DNA of 64,000 nt from Chitinophagaceae bacterium IBVUCB1 (GTDB taxonomy: Bacteria > Bacteroidota > Bacteroidia > Chitinophagales > Chitinophagaceae). The stretch's first letter is position 1, and every line of letters starts with the position of its first letter. The translations under genes were made by a program, and so were the position numbers. The notes beneath the pieces were generated by a model. It had not been told where the DNA came from. It saw only the letters and a program-made list of their open reading frames with translations, and did no database searches. The stretch is from NCBI GenBank assembly GCA_002127285.1, contig NFUW01000002.1, forward strand, positions 319,744 to 383,743, read 5' to 3'. Positions 10,849-19,298 of the stretch are shown here, piece by piece.

Positions 10849-13800
10849 ATGAAAAAGTATTTATTCCTTGTAATGGCAATTTTTGGCACAGCCAGTCAGT
10901 CTATTGCCCAAAACTGGAACACTCCGCAATTGTTGGATAATAGTGGCAACATGGTGGGTGAATCATCTTCTCTGCAAATAGTGAATGGTAATCCTGCCAT
11001 GTCTTATTTTGACGAAACAGCGGGTGACCTGAAATATATCCGTGCTACTAATGCTGCGGGTTCTACTTGGGGAAGCCCCATTACTGTACAGTCATCCAAT
11101 TTCGTAGGTGAGTTTACCTCAATGGCTATTGTAAGCGGCAATCCTGCCATTTCTTACTACGACCAGACGAATGGTAACCTGATGTATGTACGTGCCAACG
11201 ATGCTAACGGTAGCACATGGGGTACGCCAGTTACAGTTACATCAAGTGGTGATGTTGGTAAATACACATCGTTGGTAGTAGTAAATGGCAACCCTGCTAT
11301 TGCATACTTCGACGAGTCGAACGATGATTTGGAATTTGTAAGAGCTACTAATACTACAGGTACTACATGGGGTACACCTATTGTAGTACAATCTGCAGGT
11401 ACGGTAGGTTGGTTTGCATCAATGGATATTGTAAACGGTAACCCTGCTATAGCCTATTATGATGTGAGCAATGGCGATATGGAATATGTGCGCGCTACCA
11501 ATAATACGGGTAGTGCATGGGGTACACCTGTCATAATACAATCTGCCAATACCGTTGGTTTGTATTGCTCTATGGTAGTAGTAAATGGCAACCCGGCGGT
11601 TTCTTACTACGATGATACGAATGATGACTTGAGGTTTGCACGCGCCAACGATGCAAGTGGGACTACGTGGGGTACACCAGTTACATTAGATGCTACAAAT
11701 GATGTAGGTATGTACACTTCATTAAAAATAATAGATGGAAACCCGGCCATAGCATACTACGATAATTCTAATAATGACGTTAAGTACATACGTGCTACCA
11801 ATACATCGGGTACAAATTGGGGTAATCCTGCAACTTTTGAAACAATTGGTGATGTGGGTGAATATGCTTGTTTACAGTTTGTAAATGGCGCACCTGCCAT
11901 CTCTTACCACGATGATACAAACGACGACTTGCGATACGTAAATCTTTGCAATACATGGACAGGTGCTACAAGTACCGATTGGCATACAGCCAGTAACTGG
12001 TTTTTTGCTTCAGTGCCAATCAGTACAGAAGAAGTACACATTGTTGACAAATCGAATGACCCAGTAGTATCTGCTGACGTAACAGTGGCATCTATGAAGA
12101 TATATAGTGCTGGTAGGGTAACGTTGAGTGGGTCAACTACAGATTTCATTGTATCCGGCACTTTAGATAATGCGGGTACTATATCAATACAAAACGCTAC
12201 GCTTACCCTTAATGGCGCAGTAACAGGCGCAGGCACATTAACAGGTGGGCAAAATGCCAAACTAATAGCATTAGGTACTACAGGTACGCTCAACTTTACC
12301 AGTGGCAGCCGCATGTTGGAGTCGTTGGTATTGGGCAGTAGTGCCTCACTTACAGCAGCTACCGCTACTTTGGGTACATCATTAGATATTGTGGCTTGGG
12401 GTAGTGTAAAGATATGGGGTAACAGCGTATTGACTTCAAATGGCAATATGACATTGAAATCGAGCAGCGCAGGTACGGCATATATTGCAGAGGGTAGGTC
12501 AACAGGTGGTTATATAACAGGCAATGTAACGGTAGAGCGTTATGTACCCGGTGGGCGCAGGGCATTCCGTTTCTTTGGCCATCCGTTTTCTCATTCCATC
12601 GCATTGAGCCAGATATTAGACGATTTGGACGTAACAGGCAGCAATGGTGGTACAAATGGCTTTACATACCAGCCCGGCAACCCTGCATCAGCATTCTGGT
12701 ACAATCCTGTAACGGGTAATGGCTCTACTATAAATGATATAGGATGGACAGCTTTTACACATACAGACGGTACCGGTGCAAACTCTTGGGATAGGTACGA
12801 AGCAGCGCGTATATTGGTACGCGGTAGCAAAGGGCAGGGCATCTATGCAGGTGCTTATACACCGGCAGAAGTAACACTGGATATGACAGGCGCACTGAAC
12901 CAAGGCACACAAACTGTCAACTTTACTAAAGGTGCTAATACACCATTTGCATTAGTAAGTAACCCGTTTCATAGCCAGATAGATTTGAACCTGACAACAA
13001 GAAGTGCGTCATTGGGTGTCAACTTCATAGTATGGAATGCTAATCAGGGAACAAGGGGTGGCTACACAAGCGTACCATTCAGCAGCAGCTATATACTGCC
13101 TGCAGGTGCTTCTTTTGTGGTAACGATGACTGCTAATAGTTCTATCACATTTCCCGAAACATGCAAATCAACAGGCTCACCGGTAGGGTTGTTAAAAACA
13201 ACTGCTGCAAAGCCTGCACAGGTAGAATTGAAAATAGAAGACAGTACTATATTCTGGGATAGAATGTTAGTTATGTTTGACGATAGTGCTAAAGCGTTTT
13301 TTGATGACGGCGATGCTCGCAAAATGGCTAACCCAGATATAAGCTTATATACTTTCGGCAGTGACGACAGTTTGTTGTCTATAGACAGCCGCAAGCATGT
13401 AGATAGCCAGGTGATACGCCTTGGGCTGTATGTGCCGCCAGCACTCAGAAAGAGTTACAAGATGTCGTTAGGCGAGTTTAACATGGTATTGGGTACACGC
13501 ATATACCTGCGAGATAAGTACACCAACACAATGGAAGAAATTACTTCGGGTTTTGAATATTGGTTTGACGTAAATGCTGATACAGCTTCTACTGGCAACA
13601 ATCGTTTTGAACTGGTGATGCAGGGCAAGGCTACTACCAAGCCTACACCAACTACCAACGTAGCACAAACAACTACCAAAGCTAAAGAAGCTACTAAACT
13701 GGTAGTGAAACTCGTCCCCAACCCTGCTACTACAGAAGCTAAGCTGCAATATGCCGGTGCAGAGGGCAAGCAACTACAAGTAACCATTACCAATATAATG

Positions 13801-13944
13801 GGTGCGATAGTAGCCAAACTGGATGCCAAAGTGAAAGACAACGGCGAGGTGATACTGCCAGTAGCTGCGCTGCAACCAGGTATGTATATGGTAGAGGTAA
13901 CTGACGGCAAAACAACTAAGACCGAAAAACTGATAAAACAATAA
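10849..13944 (+). CDS. Secreted repeat protein with T9SS sorting domain
   Basis: A predicted secreted or surface protein of about 1031 residues. I chose the ATG at 10849 because a clean signal peptide starts there (MKKYLFLVMAIFG...SIAQ, cleavage after about residue 21); the frame stays open to 10777. Residues 28-327 are six tandem 50-residue units with the pattern VG..(S)L.(I/V)VNGNPA(I/V)(S/A)YYD..N.DL.Y(V/I)RA(T/N)...G..WG.P, and a seventh partial unit follows. A middle region resembles beta-helix or jelly-roll surface proteins. The last about 80 residues (LVPNPATTEAKL...TNIMGAIVAKLD...GMYMVEVTDGKTTKTEKLIKQ) match a type A T9SS C-terminal domain, directing export across the outer membrane. 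The function of the repeat part is unknown. Confidence 0.85.
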   Translation: MKKYLFLVMAIFGTASQSIAQNWNTPQLLDNSGNMVGESSSLQIVNGNPAMSYFDETAGDLKYIRATNAAGSTWGSPITVQSSNFVGEFTSMAIVSGNPAISYYDQTNGNLMYVRANDANGSTWGTPVTVTSSGDVGKYTSLVVVNGNPAIAYFDESNDDLEFVRATNTTGTTWGTPIVVQSAGTVGWFASMDIVNGNPAIAYYDVSNGDMEYVRATNNTGSAWGTPVIIQSANTVGLYCSMVVVNGNPAVSYYDDTNDDLRFARANDASGTTWGTPVTLDATNDVGMYTSLKIIDGNPAIAYYDNSNNDVKYIRATNTSGTNWGNPATFETIGDVGEYACLQFVNGAPAISYHDDTNDDLRYVNLCNTWTGATSTDWHTASNWFFASVPISTEEVHIVDKSNDPVVSADVTVASMKIYSAGRVTLSGSTTDFIVSGTLDNAGTISIQNATLTLNGAVTGAGTLTGGQNAKLIALGTTGTLNFTSGSRMLESLVLGSSASLTAATATLGTSLDIVAWGSVKIWGNSVLTSNGNMTLKSSSAGTAYIAEGRSTGGYITGNVTVERYVPGGRRAFRFFGHPFSHSIALSQILDDLDVTGSNGGTNGFTYQPGNPASAFWYNPVTGNGSTINDIGWTAFTHTDGTGANSWDRYEAARILVRGSKGQGIYAGAYTPAEVTLDMTGALNQGTQTVNFTKGANTPFALVSNPFHSQIDLNLTTRSASLGVNFIVWNANQGTRGGYTSVPFSSSYILPAGASFVVTMTANSSITFPETCKSTGSPVGLLKTTAAKPAQVELKIEDSTIFWDRMLVMFDDSAKAFFDDGDARKMANPDISLYTFGSDDSLLSIDSRKHVDSQVIRLGLYVPPALRKSYKMSLGEFNMVLGTRIYLRDKYTNTMEEITSGFEYWFDVNADTASTGNNRFELVMQGKATTKPTPTTNVAQTTTKAKEATKLVVKLVPNPATTEAKLQYAGAEGKQLQVTITNIMGAIVAKLDAKVKDNGEVILPVAALQPGMYMVEVTDGKTTKTEKLIKQ
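10930..11945 (+). repeat. Tandem 150-bp coding repeats
   Basis: Six complete 150-bp units (10930-11829) and one partial unit encode 50-residue protein repeats in the T9SS-exported protein. Each unit ends with a WGxP motif. The units are diverged at DNA level but nearly constant in length, with no insertions between them. Confidence 0.85.
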
Positions 13945-14125: not shown

Positions 14126-14332
14126 ATGAAAAAGATACAAATCATATTAGCAACAGCAGCCGTAATGATATTGACGAGCGTGAATAGCTACGCATTTGGC
14201 CCGGGATTTGACCCGGATGTAGAGCCTTATGCAGTGCCACTGGATGGAGGCATGAGCCTGCTGGCACTTGCTGGTGTAGCATACGGTGTGCGTATGTATA
14301 TGAAGAACAAACCCGCTAAAGTAAAGGCTTAA
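14126..14332 (+). CDS. Mini exosortase substrate (PID-CTERM-like), 68 aa
   Basis: A 68-residue protein made almost entirely of sorting signals. Residues 1-23 form a signal peptide ending SVNSYA. Only about 13 residues (FGPGFDPDVEPYA) precede the tripartite C-terminal signal: VPLDGG, a hydrophobic helix (MSLLALAGVAYGVRMYM) and a basic tail (KNKPAKVKA). This matches the layout of PID-CTERM-type sorting signals of Bacteroidota and is shared with two small genes at 17224 and 17570 beside the exosortase gene. It lies 181 nt behind the T9SS protein gene and is followed by a weak hairpin and T-run. The mature product, if processed, would be a very short acidic peptide; its role is unknown. Confidence 0.7.
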   Translation: MKKIQIILATAAVMILTSVNSYAFGPGFDPDVEPYAVPLDGGMSLLALAGVAYGVRMYMKNKPAKVKA

Positions 14333-16258: not shown

Positions 16259-16660
16259 TTATTTATTGGCATTTTGTTGCTGTGTATGTACCACTTTATG
16301 TATGATGTAGAGCATGAAATAGGGTAGTGGGCTGGTGAAAAACAAACGCAGGCTGCTCACTTGGTCTAGGAATGCCGTGCCAAACAACCCCGTTTTCCAT
16401 TGCGCTAGCCCGATAGCACCGATGATACCAATAGCAGCTATATGAGATATAAGCCACAATTTATATATCCATGCCACTCCATAAAACCGCCAGCCTATAT
16501 AACCTACAGGGGCTATGATAGCCAGTATGGCAATATGACCAATCTGCCTTTGTAATGGAGTAATAAGATGTGCGTGCCCCTCTGTAAAGTATTGATAATC
16601 AACCCAACATAGGGTAGATACCATTATGAATATCAGCCAGAAAACGATGCGATTTTTCAT
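16259..16660 (-). CDS. Small membrane protein, probable exosortase-associated
   Basis: A 133-residue membrane protein with about four hydrophobic helices and short polar ends. Its start overlaps the exosortase stop by 4 nt (ATGA-type overlap), so the two are translationally coupled. In Bacteroidota XrtF-type exosortase genes are often followed by a small membrane protein called the exosortase F system-associated protein; size, topology and position fit that role, but I see no diagnostic motif, so the name rests on context. It may instead be an unrelated hypothetical membrane protein. Confidence 0.6.
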   Translation of the reverse strand: MKNRIVFWLIFIMVSTLCWVDYQYFTEGHAHLITPLQRQIGHIAILAIIAPVGYIGWRFYGVAWIYKLWLISHIAAIGIIGAIGLAQWKTGLFGTAFLDQVSSLRLFFTSPLPYFMLYIIHKVVHTQQQNANK

Positions 16661-17187
16661 TTGGCTTTGGGCTTTTTAGAGTACAATACCCATCCGTAGA
16701 ATACGACTGCGTATATCACCAACTTAAAAGCGTAGTGGTGAGCAAAATCTGTCAGGTCGTTGTGGTTGATGTACATAACTGCAAGCACCGCACAACGTAT
16801 AACGTTTAACAGGTATATAGCGACAAAGCCGGCAAGGGTATATATCAATATCTTTTTGAAACTACTGGGGAAGCAAAGCATAAATCCTACGAAGAGGGCA
16901 TTCAACTCCAGTCCGTTGCATTGATGACCAATACTAACAGATGCTATGCCATCTATAAATACTACTGTGCCTGATTGTGTTACGTTGGGGTAAAACCAAG
17001 ATAACAGTTCGGCAGTACCTAACTGTACCAGTTTGCTTAGTTGATTATCGGGTATGCCCGATGGAGCAAGTACATACTTATAGAGGAGCGTCCACCCCAC
17101 AACCAATAATATGCCTCTAATAAGAATAGGCCTGATATTGGCTGGTAGAATATTATTGATATCAATACCTTTTGTATCGGTGCTCAT
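16657..17187 (-). CDS. Exosortase family protein (XrtF-like)
   Basis: A 176-residue multi-spanning membrane protein of the exosortase/archaeosortase family, which cleaves or transfers proteins carrying a C-terminal signal in the inner membrane. The catalytic triad is visible: C90 in SIGHQCNGLELNALFVGF, R131 in NVIRCAVLAV, and H150/H151 in DFAHHYAFK. The length suits the short Bacteroidota forms such as XrtF. It follows two genes for tiny proteins with matching C-terminal signals and overlaps the next gene, so substrates, enzyme and partner form one probable operon (17797 to 16259, minus strand). Confidence 0.85.
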   Translation of the reverse strand: MSTDTKGIDINNILPANIRPILIRGILLVVGWTLLYKYVLAPSGIPDNQLSKLVQLGTAELLSWFYPNVTQSGTVVFIDGIASVSIGHQCNGLELNALFVGFMLCFPSSFKKILIYTLAGFVAIYLLNVIRCAVLAVMYINHNDLTDFAHHYAFKLVIYAVVFYGWVLYSKKPKAK

Positions 17188-17223
17188 CTCTTATCTGCTC
17201 AGCTGTAATAAGGTAATTGAGGT

Positions 17224-17451
17224 TTATTTATTTTTTTTGTTGCCTCTGTATTTTTTGATGCCAAGTCCTGCAGCACCGGCAATCAGCAAGGCAGCAGCAC
17301 CCTCAAGCGGTACGGCGTAGCCACCGCCACCGCAGTTGCAACCCCAGCCATACTTGGTATTGCACCAAGTAGTATGTGCAAAACTGCTTAAAGGCAACGT
17401 TATCATCGCAACAAGTAGTGTTGCTTTAGCAGCATAGAGGATTTTTTTCAT
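17224..17451 (-). CDS. Mini exosortase substrate (PID-CTERM-like), 75 aa
   Basis: A 75-residue protein; I place the start at 17451 because a signal peptide begins there (MKKILYAAKATLLVAMITLPLSSFA), although the frame is open to 17526. The segment expected to remain after signal cleavage is about 21 residues, with three cysteines and a glycine run (HTTWCNTKYGWGCNCGGGGYA), and is followed by VPLEG, a hydrophobic alanine/glycine-rich helix and a basic tail (KKYRGNKKNK). The signal is homologous to those at 14126 and 17570. It lies 36 nt upstream of the exosortase gene. Function unknown; the cysteines could be cross-linked or bind a metal. Confidence 0.7.
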   Translation of the reverse strand: MKKILYAAKATLLVAMITLPLSSFAHTTWCNTKYGWGCNCGGGGYAVPLEGAAALLIAGAAGLGIKKYRGNKKNK

Positions 17452-17569
17452 ACAAGCGTCGTTTTTTATTTTCCGGATAGATGGCAAATATCCCTTTTTC
17501 TTCCATATTAGCCAAGTGTTTGCCAATCATTAATTAGCAGTTTATATATCATAAACCATGCCGTGCTGC

Positions 17570-17797
17570 TTATTTCTCAGTATTCTTTTTCTTTCTACTT
17601 GCCCTTACACGGCTAATACCATAACCTGCGCCGGCAATAGCCATCAGGCTAAGTCCACCATCTAAAGGCACGGCATAGCCACCACCACCACAGTAACATT
17701 TGGTACTTGTACAATAAGAATAGTGAGCATCAGAAACAGCAGGTATTGCTAGCATGGCGCATAAAGCAGCCATCTTCAGCGAACGGGAAAATTTCAT
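17570..17797 (-). CDS. Mini exosortase substrate (PID-CTERM-like), 75 aa
   Basis: A 75-residue protein; the ATG at 17797 gives a normal signal peptide (MKFSRSLKMAALCAMLAIPA...SDA), so I prefer it to the open frame up to 17854. The predicted mature N-terminal part is about 18 residues with three cysteines and a GGGG run (HYSYCTSTKCYCGGGGYA), strikingly like its neighbour at 17224. Then come VPLDGG, a hydrophobic helix and a lysine/arginine tail. It is the first gene of the probable operon leading to the exosortase. Function unknown. Confidence 0.7.
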   Translation of the reverse strand: MKFSRSLKMAALCAMLAIPAVSDAHYSYCTSTKCYCGGGGYAVPLDGGLSLMAIAGAGYGISRVRASRKKKNTEK

Positions 17798-18164: not shown

Positions 18165-19298
18165 TTATATCATGATTTTCAACTTGTCTACTACAATGTC
18201 TATCTCTTCTTTGGTGTTTTGTTTAGAGAATGAGAAGCGTATTGGCACAATGGATGCAGCATTTTGGGGGTAGAGAGCCTGTATTACATGGCTGATACTA
18301 TTGGCACCACTACTGCATGCGCTACCGCCGCTAACGCAGATGCCTGCCATATCAAGGTTGAAGAGTACCATGTCCGACTTATCTGTAAGAGGGAAACCTA
18401 TGTTCAGAACTGTATATAGACTATTGCCTTCAGCATCACCATTTAATAATATATCTGAAAAAGTAGTACGCAGTTTTTCTATCATGTAGTTTTTAAGCCC
18501 TTGTATGTATTGGCTGTCTTGCTCGTAACCTTCGGTCGCTATCTCTAATGCTTTTGCATAGCCTACAATACCGTACAGGTTTTCGGTGCCAGCCCGCATA
18601 TTACGTTCTTGCGAGCCACCATTCAGCATGGGCTGTATTTTTATTTCTTCGTTTACATACAATATGCCTACACCCTTTGGCCCGTGAAACTTGTGCCCTG
18701 CAGAGCTGGCAAAGTGTATATATATATCATGCAGATTGATGGGGTAGTGCCCGATGGTTTGTACCATATCGCAATGGAAGATGGCATTGTATTTACGGCA
18801 TAGCTCGCCTACGGCGTTTAAATCAAGCAGGTTGCCAATTTCGTTATTGGCGTGCATCAGCGTCACCAATGTTTTTTCGCTGCTATGTGCCAATAGTGCA
18901 TCTAAGTGTTGCAGGTCTATGTGCCCGTTTGTAGTAAGGTTTACATATTCCAGCTTGGCTTGCTTGGTTTTATGCAAATATTCAACCGTATGCAGGGTAG
19001 CATGGTGTTCTATAGATGATGAGATGATGCGTGTGCAGCCCAAATCTCTCACTGCTGCGTGTATAGCAGTGTTACTACTTTCTGTGCCACCAGATGTAAA
19101 GAAGATTTCTCCGGGATTGGCATGTACTATTTTAGCAACTGATTTGCGGGCGTTCTCAATAGCCATCTTTGTTTCGCGGCCATAAGAGTAGATGGATGAG
19201 GGATTACCGAATTTTTCGGTCATATAAGGCATCATCGCATCCAATACCTGCGCATCCAAAGCCGTAGTGGCTGCATTGTCAAAGTAAATCCGCTGCAT
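18165..19298 (-). CDS. Cysteine desulfurase (IscS/NifS family)
   Basis: A 377-residue PLP enzyme that removes sulfur from cysteine to give alanine and a persulfide used for Fe-S clusters, tRNA thiolation and other sulfur carriers. The PLP lysine is K203 in SSAGHKFHGPKG and the catalytic cysteine is C328 in SGGSACSSG. The PLP-contacting FFTSGGTESSN (67-76) and HCDMVQ are present. The short active-site loop with SACSSG is group I (IscS/NifS-like), not SufS. No isc scaffold genes are nearby, so it may serve several pathways. A -7-like element (CAAAGTTA, minus strand TAACTTTG) lies 9-16 nt upstream. Confidence 0.93.
   Translation of the reverse strand: MQRIYFDNAATTALDAQVLDAMMPYMTEKFGNPSSIYSYGRETKMAIENARKSVAKIVHANPGEIFFTSGGTESSNTAIHAAVRDLGCTRIISSSIEHHATLHTVEYLHKTKQAKLEYVNLTTNGHIDLQHLDALLAHSSEKTLVTLMHANNEIGNLLDLNAVGELCRKYNAIFHCDMVQTIGHYPINLHDIYIHFASSAGHKFHGPKGVGILYVNEEIKIQPMLNGGSQERNMRAGTENLYGIVGYAKALEIATEGYEQDSQYIQGLKNYMIEKLRTTFSDILLNGDAEGNSLYTVLNIGFPLTDKSDMVLFNLDMAGICVSGGSACSSGANSISHVIQALYPQNAASIVPIRFSFSKQNTKEEIDIVVDKLKIMI

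Follow-up and report, generated by a model that had tools for sequence, protein, structure and literature searches.

What can an exosortase do with substrates that are little more than their own sorting signals? This question is raised by a stretch of 64,000 nucleotides from Chitinophagaceae bacterium IBVUCB1 (contig NFUW01000002.1, positions 319,744 to 383,743), referred to below as the window. Here an exosortase gene lies in an operon with two genes for very small precursors, pepA and pepB, and a third gene of the same kind, pepC, follows a large cargo protein of the type IX secretion system (T9SS). The answer proposed here, to which a probability of about 55% is given, is that an exosortase-X-type system matures micropeptides that serve as companions, and perhaps as tethers, of adhesins resembling RemA of Flavobacterium johnsoniae.

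The pepC gene (14126..14332, plus strand, start ATG 14126) encodes a precursor of 68 amino acids. It consists of a signal peptide, a mature part of 13 residues (FGPGFDPDVEPYA, 14195-14233, plus strand), a VPLDGG motif, a helix, and a basic tail. The signal-peptide cuts of pepA, pepB, and pepC are the authors' own reading of the sequences. With the PID_CTERM model NF046080 (cut-off 26 bits), pepC scores 37.9 and pepA 34.3 bits, both over the cut-off, and pepB reaches 18.1 bits (E 0.0018), below it. The original prediction, made from the sequence alone, had seen two mini-precursors upstream of the exosortase and a third at 14126, with C-terminal signals of the PID-CTERM type. All three are genes where it had placed them, and its guess at the family is borne out for two of the three signals. 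In searches of the PDB, no relative was found of pepA (best E 0.42) or pepC (best E 0.95).

Upstream of pepC lies the cargo (10849..13944, plus strand), a T9SS type A protein of 1031 amino acids whose start codon at 10849 is the authors' choice. It carries a signal peptide, repeats, a module of about 390 amino acids here called the A-domain (12439..13623, plus strand, profile E 2e-115), and a type A C-terminal sorting domain, or CTD (13717..13941, plus strand; a TIGR04183 match at C2:333460-333684, converted to window coordinates). The cargo scores 45.7 bits with TIGR04183 (cut-off 23) and 41.1 bits with PF18962 (cut-off 27). A profile of 30 A-domains matches residues 1004-1344 of RemA from F. 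johnsoniae (PDB 8gl6 chain D) with E 2.6e-36; a Pfam search with the same 30 domains gave no family and two single weak matches. One cargo of the same genome was the seed of the A-domain model, and only genes that precede genes for PID-CTERM precursors (PID genes) were used to iterate it; at most 6 candidates were scored in each genome scanned.

The genome that contains the window (3.4 Mb, 2 contigs) has 141 CTD matches and, with at most 6 candidates scored, 4 A-domain matches. Two of these four precede PID genes. The genome has five PID-CTERM genes, three of them over the cut-off: pepA, pepB, pepC, one beside a second exosortase, and one directly after another A-domain cargo.

The same neighbourhood recurs across the order. 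The order sample comprised 298 genomes, 69 with a PID match at E <= 0.01 and 58 with one over the cut-off. A motif search gave 115 hits, of which 7 were judged false by eye and removed; the remaining 108 PID genes come from 101 of the 110 PID-centred loci, and some listed PID matches were left out. Pairs were counted on open frames of the same strand with a gap between frames of at most 500 bases. By this count, 68 of the 108 PID genes lie downstream of an A-domain protein. Sixty-four follow a protein with a detected type A CTD, and 63 of these 64 proteins carry an A-domain (the exception is locus L163); five further A-domain proteins upstream of PID genes have no CTD call by the model. The gap between cargo stop and PID start is at most 100 bases in 53 of the 61 cases measured. 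An exosortase lies within 1 kb on the same strand in 28 of the 108, and 14 of these also have an A-domain upstream. Outside the 108 stand the nine loci without a motif hit: an A-domain protein is encoded upstream in L132 and L170 and a CTD protein in L158 and L164, L174 lies by an exosortase, and four have none of these. The PID-like gene after the CTD protein in L164 (358-558) has a leader seemingly fused to its anchor helix; with mature part and motif missing, it is perhaps a decayed copy.

There is a precedent for a large cargo with a small dedicated partner. Type B cargos of the T9SS need a shuttle encoded directly downstream (PMC12618676, available part), so that the neighbours of cargo genes can be read as dedicated partners here too.

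Further evidence for the pairing comes from the way in which the neighbours diverge. Within six genomes with at least three pairs each, similarity between mature peptides tracks similarity between the neighbouring A-domains, with r 0.73 over 42 within-genome comparisons, a value reached by none of 2000 shuffles. For comparison, r is 0.64 when whole precursors are used (1 of 2000 shuffles) and 0.57 when the CTD of the same protein is used (4 of 2000). Such tracking shows co-inheritance and not binding, because joint duplication can produce it. By gene order and co-divergence together, the pairing of PID genes with RemA-type cargos is well supported.

The pairing extends beyond the order. Among 29 of 54 PID genomes from outside it, examined at the locus of the best match with flanks of at most 1.5 kb, a T9SS CTD protein lies upstream in 23 loci, and an A-domain was detected in 21 of these; one locus lies beside an exosortase, and five have neither.

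At the level of whole genomes, PID genes also occur together with exosortases related to exosortase X (XrtX). In a phylum sample of 395 genomes, an XrtX-like exosortase is present in every one of the 59 PID genomes, and PID is found in 43 of the 45 genomes with XrtX over the cut-off. In the order sample, an XrtX-like exosortase (E <= 1e-5) is present in 57 of the 58 genomes with PID over the cut-off, the exception being 78% complete, and an A-domain likewise in 57 of 58. Of all 69 PID genomes of the order, 62 have an exosortase and 61 an A-domain. Among the 89 genomes of the order with an A-domain, PID is listed in 60 of the 69 with an exosortase and in 1 of the 20 without; when loci were read, three further genomes proved to have PID genes absent from the list, and an exosortase is present in two of these three. 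No PID match over the cut-off was found in 14 control genomes. The co-occurrence that the original prediction had proposed to look for in relatives is found for the exosortase, and the Cys/Gly richness that it had noted is seen in one genus.

These observations bear on a plainer explanation, in which exosortase sorting works as it does elsewhere: peptides joined to polysaccharide or lipid coat the cell, and the adhesin is a neighbour through shared regulation. In favour of this, the exosortases of PEP-CTERM systems are tied to exopolysaccharide loci (PMC7468200, available part). The mature parts of different lineages would suit a coat, being alike in composition (G 23%, P 23%, D 10% in the order set) and not in sequence. 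Genetic data from F. johnsoniae can be read either way. According to the accessible part of a 2024 study (PMC10936215), deletion of xrtF or Fjoh_1449 reduces sand colonisation, strongly reduces biofilm, and abolishes zorbs. Biofilm is likewise strongly reduced and zorbs are absent after deletion of porU, porV, porZ, or sprA, which speaks for the companion reading; biofilm is also lost in a mutant of the polysaccharide gene Fjoh_0334, which suits ordinary sorting. That part leaves the exosortase substrates to future research and mentions RemA in its reference list. Against such ordinary sorting stand the identity of the neighbour, which is one specific domain family in 63 of 64 CTD proteins upstream, and the joint divergence of peptide and A-domain. 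It is therefore considered unlikely, and a role beside the RemA-type adhesins is preferred.

Several observations weigh against this preference. For 40 of the 108 PID genes, the upstream protein lacks the A-domain or no such protein is there. Fourteen of the 40 are within 1 kb of an exosortase and one follows a CTD protein only, which leaves 25 of the 108 with no A-domain, CTD protein, or exosortase as neighbour. These 25 comprise 11 that adjoin a DNA-alkyltransferase-like gene, all in one genus, 5 whose upstream side is off the contig, and 9 others. The two precursors of the window's exosortase operon, pepA and pepB, have no T9SS neighbour. Seen from the other side, a listed PID gene lies within 1.2 kb downstream in 57 of the 150 A-domain matches listed. 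Of the 18 exosortase loci read in the phylum sample, only one has a PID gene beside the exosortase (L370). Eight genomes of the genus g143, taken for Flavobacterium, have RemA-like genes with no PID gene downstream. The co-divergence of the neighbours could be explained by joint duplication alone, and the Fisher tests of co-occurrence ignore shared ancestry. Finally, the available part of PMC10936215 gives deletions of two genes of other kinds, Fjoh_0334 and Fjoh_0651, in the same phenotype row as those of xrtF, Fjoh_1449, porU, and porZ, so that the phenotype is not specific to the T9SS.

The A-domain loci themselves give a mixed picture. A PID gene is present in 30 of the top 40 A-domain matches, a share biased upward by the seeding of the model. 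Of 20 unpaired loci, four have an unlisted PID-like gene (L270-L273), and L262 has a decayed one. In the unpaired loci L260, L275, and L276, a secreted gene of about 170 amino acids directly follows the cargo, with DUF4402 in L260; this protein is perhaps an alternative partner of RemA-type cargos. The DNA-alkyltransferase-like neighbours are a separate observation: in one genus a PID gene follows such a gene, and not a T9SS cargo, in the 11 loci L086, L087, L100, L102, L108, L131, L133, L141, L144, L154, and L155 (PF01035 was scored for L087, the others being assigned by eye).

The genomes of g143 deserve separate mention. They are taken for Flavobacterium because the protein after the g143 exosortase matches TIGR04127. 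The idea that PID peptides may be substrates of the exosortase XrtF led to a scan of 30 loci (L380-L409, from 11 genomes) for what follows their RemA-like cargos. A PID-like tiny gene stands directly after the cargo in two of them, L382 and L383, and in none of the g143 loci, which gives the idea no support. In L352, from a metagenome-assembled genome (MAG) titled Flavobacterium, the genes for an A-domain protein, a PID precursor, and an exosortase follow one another.

The exosortase of the window belongs to an operon of four tandem genes on the minus strand (16259-17797), in the order pepA, pepB, exosortase, and a membrane protein of 133 amino acids. The pepA precursor (17570..17797, minus strand, start ATG 17797) has 75 amino acids, with a signal peptide, a mature part of 18 residues before the motif (HYSYCTSTKCYCGGGGYA, 17672-17725, minus strand), a VPLDGG motif, a helix, and a basic tail. 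The pepB precursor (17224..17451, minus strand, start ATG 17451) also has 75 amino acids, with a mature part of 21 residues before its VPLEGA motif (HTTWCNTKYGWGCNCGGGGYA, 17314-17376, minus strand), a helix, and a basic tail. The exosortase (16657..17187, minus strand) has 176 amino acids and the catalytic triad C90, R131, and H150. The membrane protein (16259..16660, minus strand), which by its place corresponds to the membrane proteins associated with XrtX and XrtF, is coupled to the exosortase, as predicted, by a 4-base overlap with its end. It matched no family up to E 10, NF046082 included. Where an exosortase was found in the phylum set, a gene of 145-191 amino acids lies directly 3' of it in 12 of 18 loci; one of these proteins is over the TIGR04127 cut-off and one weakly matches NF046082. 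Upstream of the pepA operon, on the same strand, is a class-V aminotransferase (18165-19298, PF00266), by eye a cysteine desulfurase. It is also upstream in L281, and its place next to an operon for Cys-rich peptides is probably a chance neighbourhood. A promoter motif has one distant match upstream of pepA, to which no weight is given.

The exosortase is closest to exosortase X. With the XrtX model NF046081 it scores 129.9 bits, below the cut-off of 170, and this is its best model by 66 bits; XrtF gives 63.4 bits (cut-off 90) and XrtY 57.1 bits. Two general models are passed, TIGR04178 with 54.3 bits (cut-off 23) and PF09721 with 27.6 bits (cut-off 25.7). The Cys, Arg, and His residues of the exosortase/archaeosortase family are present in a transmembrane protein: C90, R131, and H150 are invariant across 32 aligned exosortases, and H151, which had been named as an alternative to H150, varies. 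By these model scores, the enzyme is a divergent relative of XrtX and not a certified member of exosortase X. A PEP-CTERM/EpsH system was rejected for the window genes, since the motifs are VPLDG and VPLEG, not PEP, and XrtA is absent from the 15 models that the exosortase matches. A search of the PDB with the exosortase profile gave no relative (best E 1.4). An exosortase 33% identical to the window's, and Bacteroidota-like, occurs in L335, a MAG record titled Rickettsiales bacterium NP5, which is possibly a mislabelled bin.

Two more exosortases are found in the same genome. The second, also XrtX-like (138.7 bits), adjoins the PID-CTERM precursor of L172 (3909-4235, C2:29118), which has only QTPAEC before its VPVDGG motif; relatives carry QTPADC and QTASNC. 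The third is closest to XrtY (144.3 bits, cut-off 160; C1:1096465-1096953, L182 4036-4620). It lies directly 3' of the gene for EF-Ts (PF00889), and no PID-type gene was seen in the list of open frames around it.

Very short products are a general property of the PID-CTERM family in the order. The 13-21 residues given by the original prediction agree with the 18, 21, and 13 residues read before the motif in pepA, pepB, and pepC, and it had treated such tiny mature parts as a trait of this operon. That view had to be given up. In the 102 of 108 PID genes of the order that could be parsed, the part before the motif has a median length of 12.5 residues, with quartiles of 10 and 18 and extremes of 2 and 94, and 93 of the 102 have at most 25 residues, so that substrates uniquely tiny to the operon were rejected as an explanation. 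The mature lengths come from a home-made signal-peptide rule that misplaces some cuts, for example that of pepA in L280, two residues early. No PID match over the cut-off in the order sample is in an open frame longer than 165 amino acids; among the matches listed for the phylum sample, one over the cut-off lies in a frame of 995 amino acids. A second set, of PID genes near exosortases of named genomes, has longer parts: of 46 genes 44 were parsed, with a median of 21 and a maximum of 130 residues, and 29 of the 44 have at most 25. In L286, L288, and L289, longer PID proteins of up to about 190 amino acids, Asp/Asn-rich and of low complexity, stand near an exosortase, and so the substrate can grow too.

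Genes of this size may be spurious, and their evolution was compared with that in Chitinophagaceae bacterium LGM1 (CP075895.1) as the reference relative. The synonymous and nonsynonymous divergences (dS/dN) are 1.26/0.09 for pepB, 1.21/0.26 for pepA, and 0.96/0.14 for pepC. These low dN/dS values, with the gene order kept in close relatives, rule out spurious open reading frames. When pepC is divided into leader, mature part, and the remainder (motif, helix, and tail), identity to LGM1 is 9/22, 13/13, and 30/32, with a proportion of synonymous differences (pS) of 0.50-0.59 across the segments; identity to L281 is 8/22, 13/13, and 26/32. For pepB the values are 17/24, 20/21, and 25/29 with LGM1 and 14/24, 19/21, and 22/29 with L283. 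The 13/13 and 20/21 identical mature residues stand at a pS of 0.56-0.63. This comparison of sequences shows purifying selection acting on the tiny mature peptides, in many cases more strongly than on any other segment.

This result bears on an explanation that assigns the function to the small membrane protein as such: its helix and basic tail would act, for example, as a micro-chaperone at the inner membrane, and cleavage by the exosortase would only remove it. Motif, helix, and tail are indeed the part common to the whole family, and compared with L282 and L284 the mature part of pepB is less conserved than the rest (14/21 versus 22/29). That explanation is nevertheless improbable in the face of the mature parts of pepC, and of pepB compared with LGM1 and L283, being the most conserved segments. 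In L282-L284, moreover, the mature part of pepC is still FGPGFDPDVPPYA, having kept FGPGFDPDV, and the motif has drifted to APIDEG, losing the usual form for PIDEG.

A second feature of the mature parts is their first residue, which is Gln in 72 of the 102 parsed peptides. Bacteroidetes turn N-terminal Gln into pyroglutamate in most products of signal peptidase I (PMC5837995, available part), and many PID peptides are therefore probably capped in front. The cap matters for a model of two sortases in relay, by which the exosortase would put the peptide on a glycolipid and PorU would then join the C-terminus of the cargo to the N-terminus of the peptide. Cyclisation to pyroglutamate removes the amine that such a joint would use, and in the window's genome a known PID partner exists for 2 of the 141 CTD matches. 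A relay is accordingly held to be very improbable, and the peptide is preferred as a companion of the adhesin.

The peptides pepA and pepB differ from the rest in being rich in Cys and Gly. Counterparts of pepA are found in four of five close relatives, none being found in L281, and counterparts of pepB in all five. Read by eye, the 11 pepA and pepB sequences, which come from six species, all begin with H and have W or Y at position 4, C at position 5, and a later C-x-C-G. This pattern is lacking in the exosortase-linked peptides of more distant loci, for example TWGRWDNYKPPTNN in L287 and AVQ in L300. From the sequences, the N-terminal His and at least three Cys suggest, speculatively, metal binding or cross-linking, and the pair may be a genus-specific specialisation in metal or disulfide chemistry.

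On another reading, the exosortase releases secreted signals, antimicrobials, or metal-binding peptides, and the Cys/Gly pair would be a metallophore or redox peptide. The N-terminal His and the C...C-x-C pattern in 11 of 11 sequences would fit. Among the other rows listed, only L099 has two or more Cys, and most are low-complexity sequences of Gly, Pro, and Asp; nor was any transporter, receptor, or processing gene seen in the pepA-exosortase operon itself. Of the explanations weighed here, this one is left with the slimmest chance.

How the preferred companion of the adhesin would be made can be outlined in three steps. First, on the standard reading of the architecture, Sec would export the precursor and signal peptidase would take off the leader. 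Next, to judge from the enzyme family, the exosortase would cut at the VP(L/I)DGG motif and leave the helix behind, and the new C-terminus would perhaps be joined to a lipid or a sugar. Related joints have been described, in the available parts of the sources, for ArtA-dependent lipid-mediated anchoring in haloarchaea (PMC7157517) and proposed for a PEP-CTERM exosortase, which would attach its substrate to an unknown compound (PMC7468200). The product would be a peptide of about 10-20 residues, with a pyroglutamate cap in most relatives, where Gln comes first; cut at the motif, the products of a locus of the LGM1 type would be FGPGFDPDVEPYA and HTTWCNTKYGWSCNCGGGGYA. In the third step, the usual partner would be the giant RemA-type adhesin of type IX secretion whose A-domain is encoded directly upstream. 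The peptide may then act as a companion specific to its cargo, with a part in tethering or assembling the adhesin at the outer membrane. In the window, pepC would belong to the cargo at 10849-13944, and pepA and pepB to the exosortase operon.

A stronger version is offered tentatively and is doubtful: that exosortase X mainly makes micropeptides capped at both ends, by pyroglutamate in front and by a conjugate at the C-terminus, each of which would tether a particular RemA-type adhesin or assist in its assembly. If true, type IX secretion would have a second, peptide-based layer that links an inner-membrane sortase to outer-membrane export, and two further peptides would have evolved within one genus into a His/Cys pair for metal binding or cross-linking. 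The recurring link from exosortase through peptide to a RemA-type adhesin suggests what some of the shortest exported products that the authors know of may do. It is also a possible answer to the question of how RemA-like type A cargos stay on the cell surface. RemA-HaloTag foci are partly immobile and partly mobile, and RemA is present in the medium too (PMC12618676, available part).

PID-CTERM, exosortase X, and the XrtX-associated membrane protein are already known as NCBIfam models (NF046080, NF046081, and NF046082). New to the authors are the link of this micropeptide and exosortase system to RemA-type T9SS adhesins and the tight conservation of the tiny mature parts; the original prediction had noted neither. 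In the open-licence library searched, no paper mentioning PID-CTERM was found, and the available parts of PMC7468200 and PMC10936215 do not report a pairing of an exosortase system with a RemA-type adhesin.

The genes of the window resemble the PID-CTERM/exosortase X system in motif, helix, basic tail, XrtX-like exosortase, and post-exosortase membrane protein. They differ from it in an exosortase 40 bits below the cut-off, a membrane protein that NF046082 does not recognise, one precursor under the cut-off, and Cys/Gly-rich peptides. The XrtF system of F. johnsoniae (PMC10936215, available part) is alike in combining an exosortase with a small membrane protein in surface life, but XrtF is a distinct subfamily, with whose model the window's exosortase stays below the cut-off, and the g143 loci L361-L364 show no PID gene next to their exosortase. 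Type B T9SS cargos with their SprF-like shuttle (PMC12618676, available part) likewise pair a large cargo with a small downstream partner gene. There the partner is an outer-membrane shuttle, whereas here it is a micropeptide with an exosortase signal. Finally, the window cargo shares with the RemA and RemZ adhesins of F. johnsoniae the module of RemA residues 1004-1344 and the type A CTD; the RemA-like genes of g143 stand without a PID-CTERM gene, whereas here one follows the cargo.

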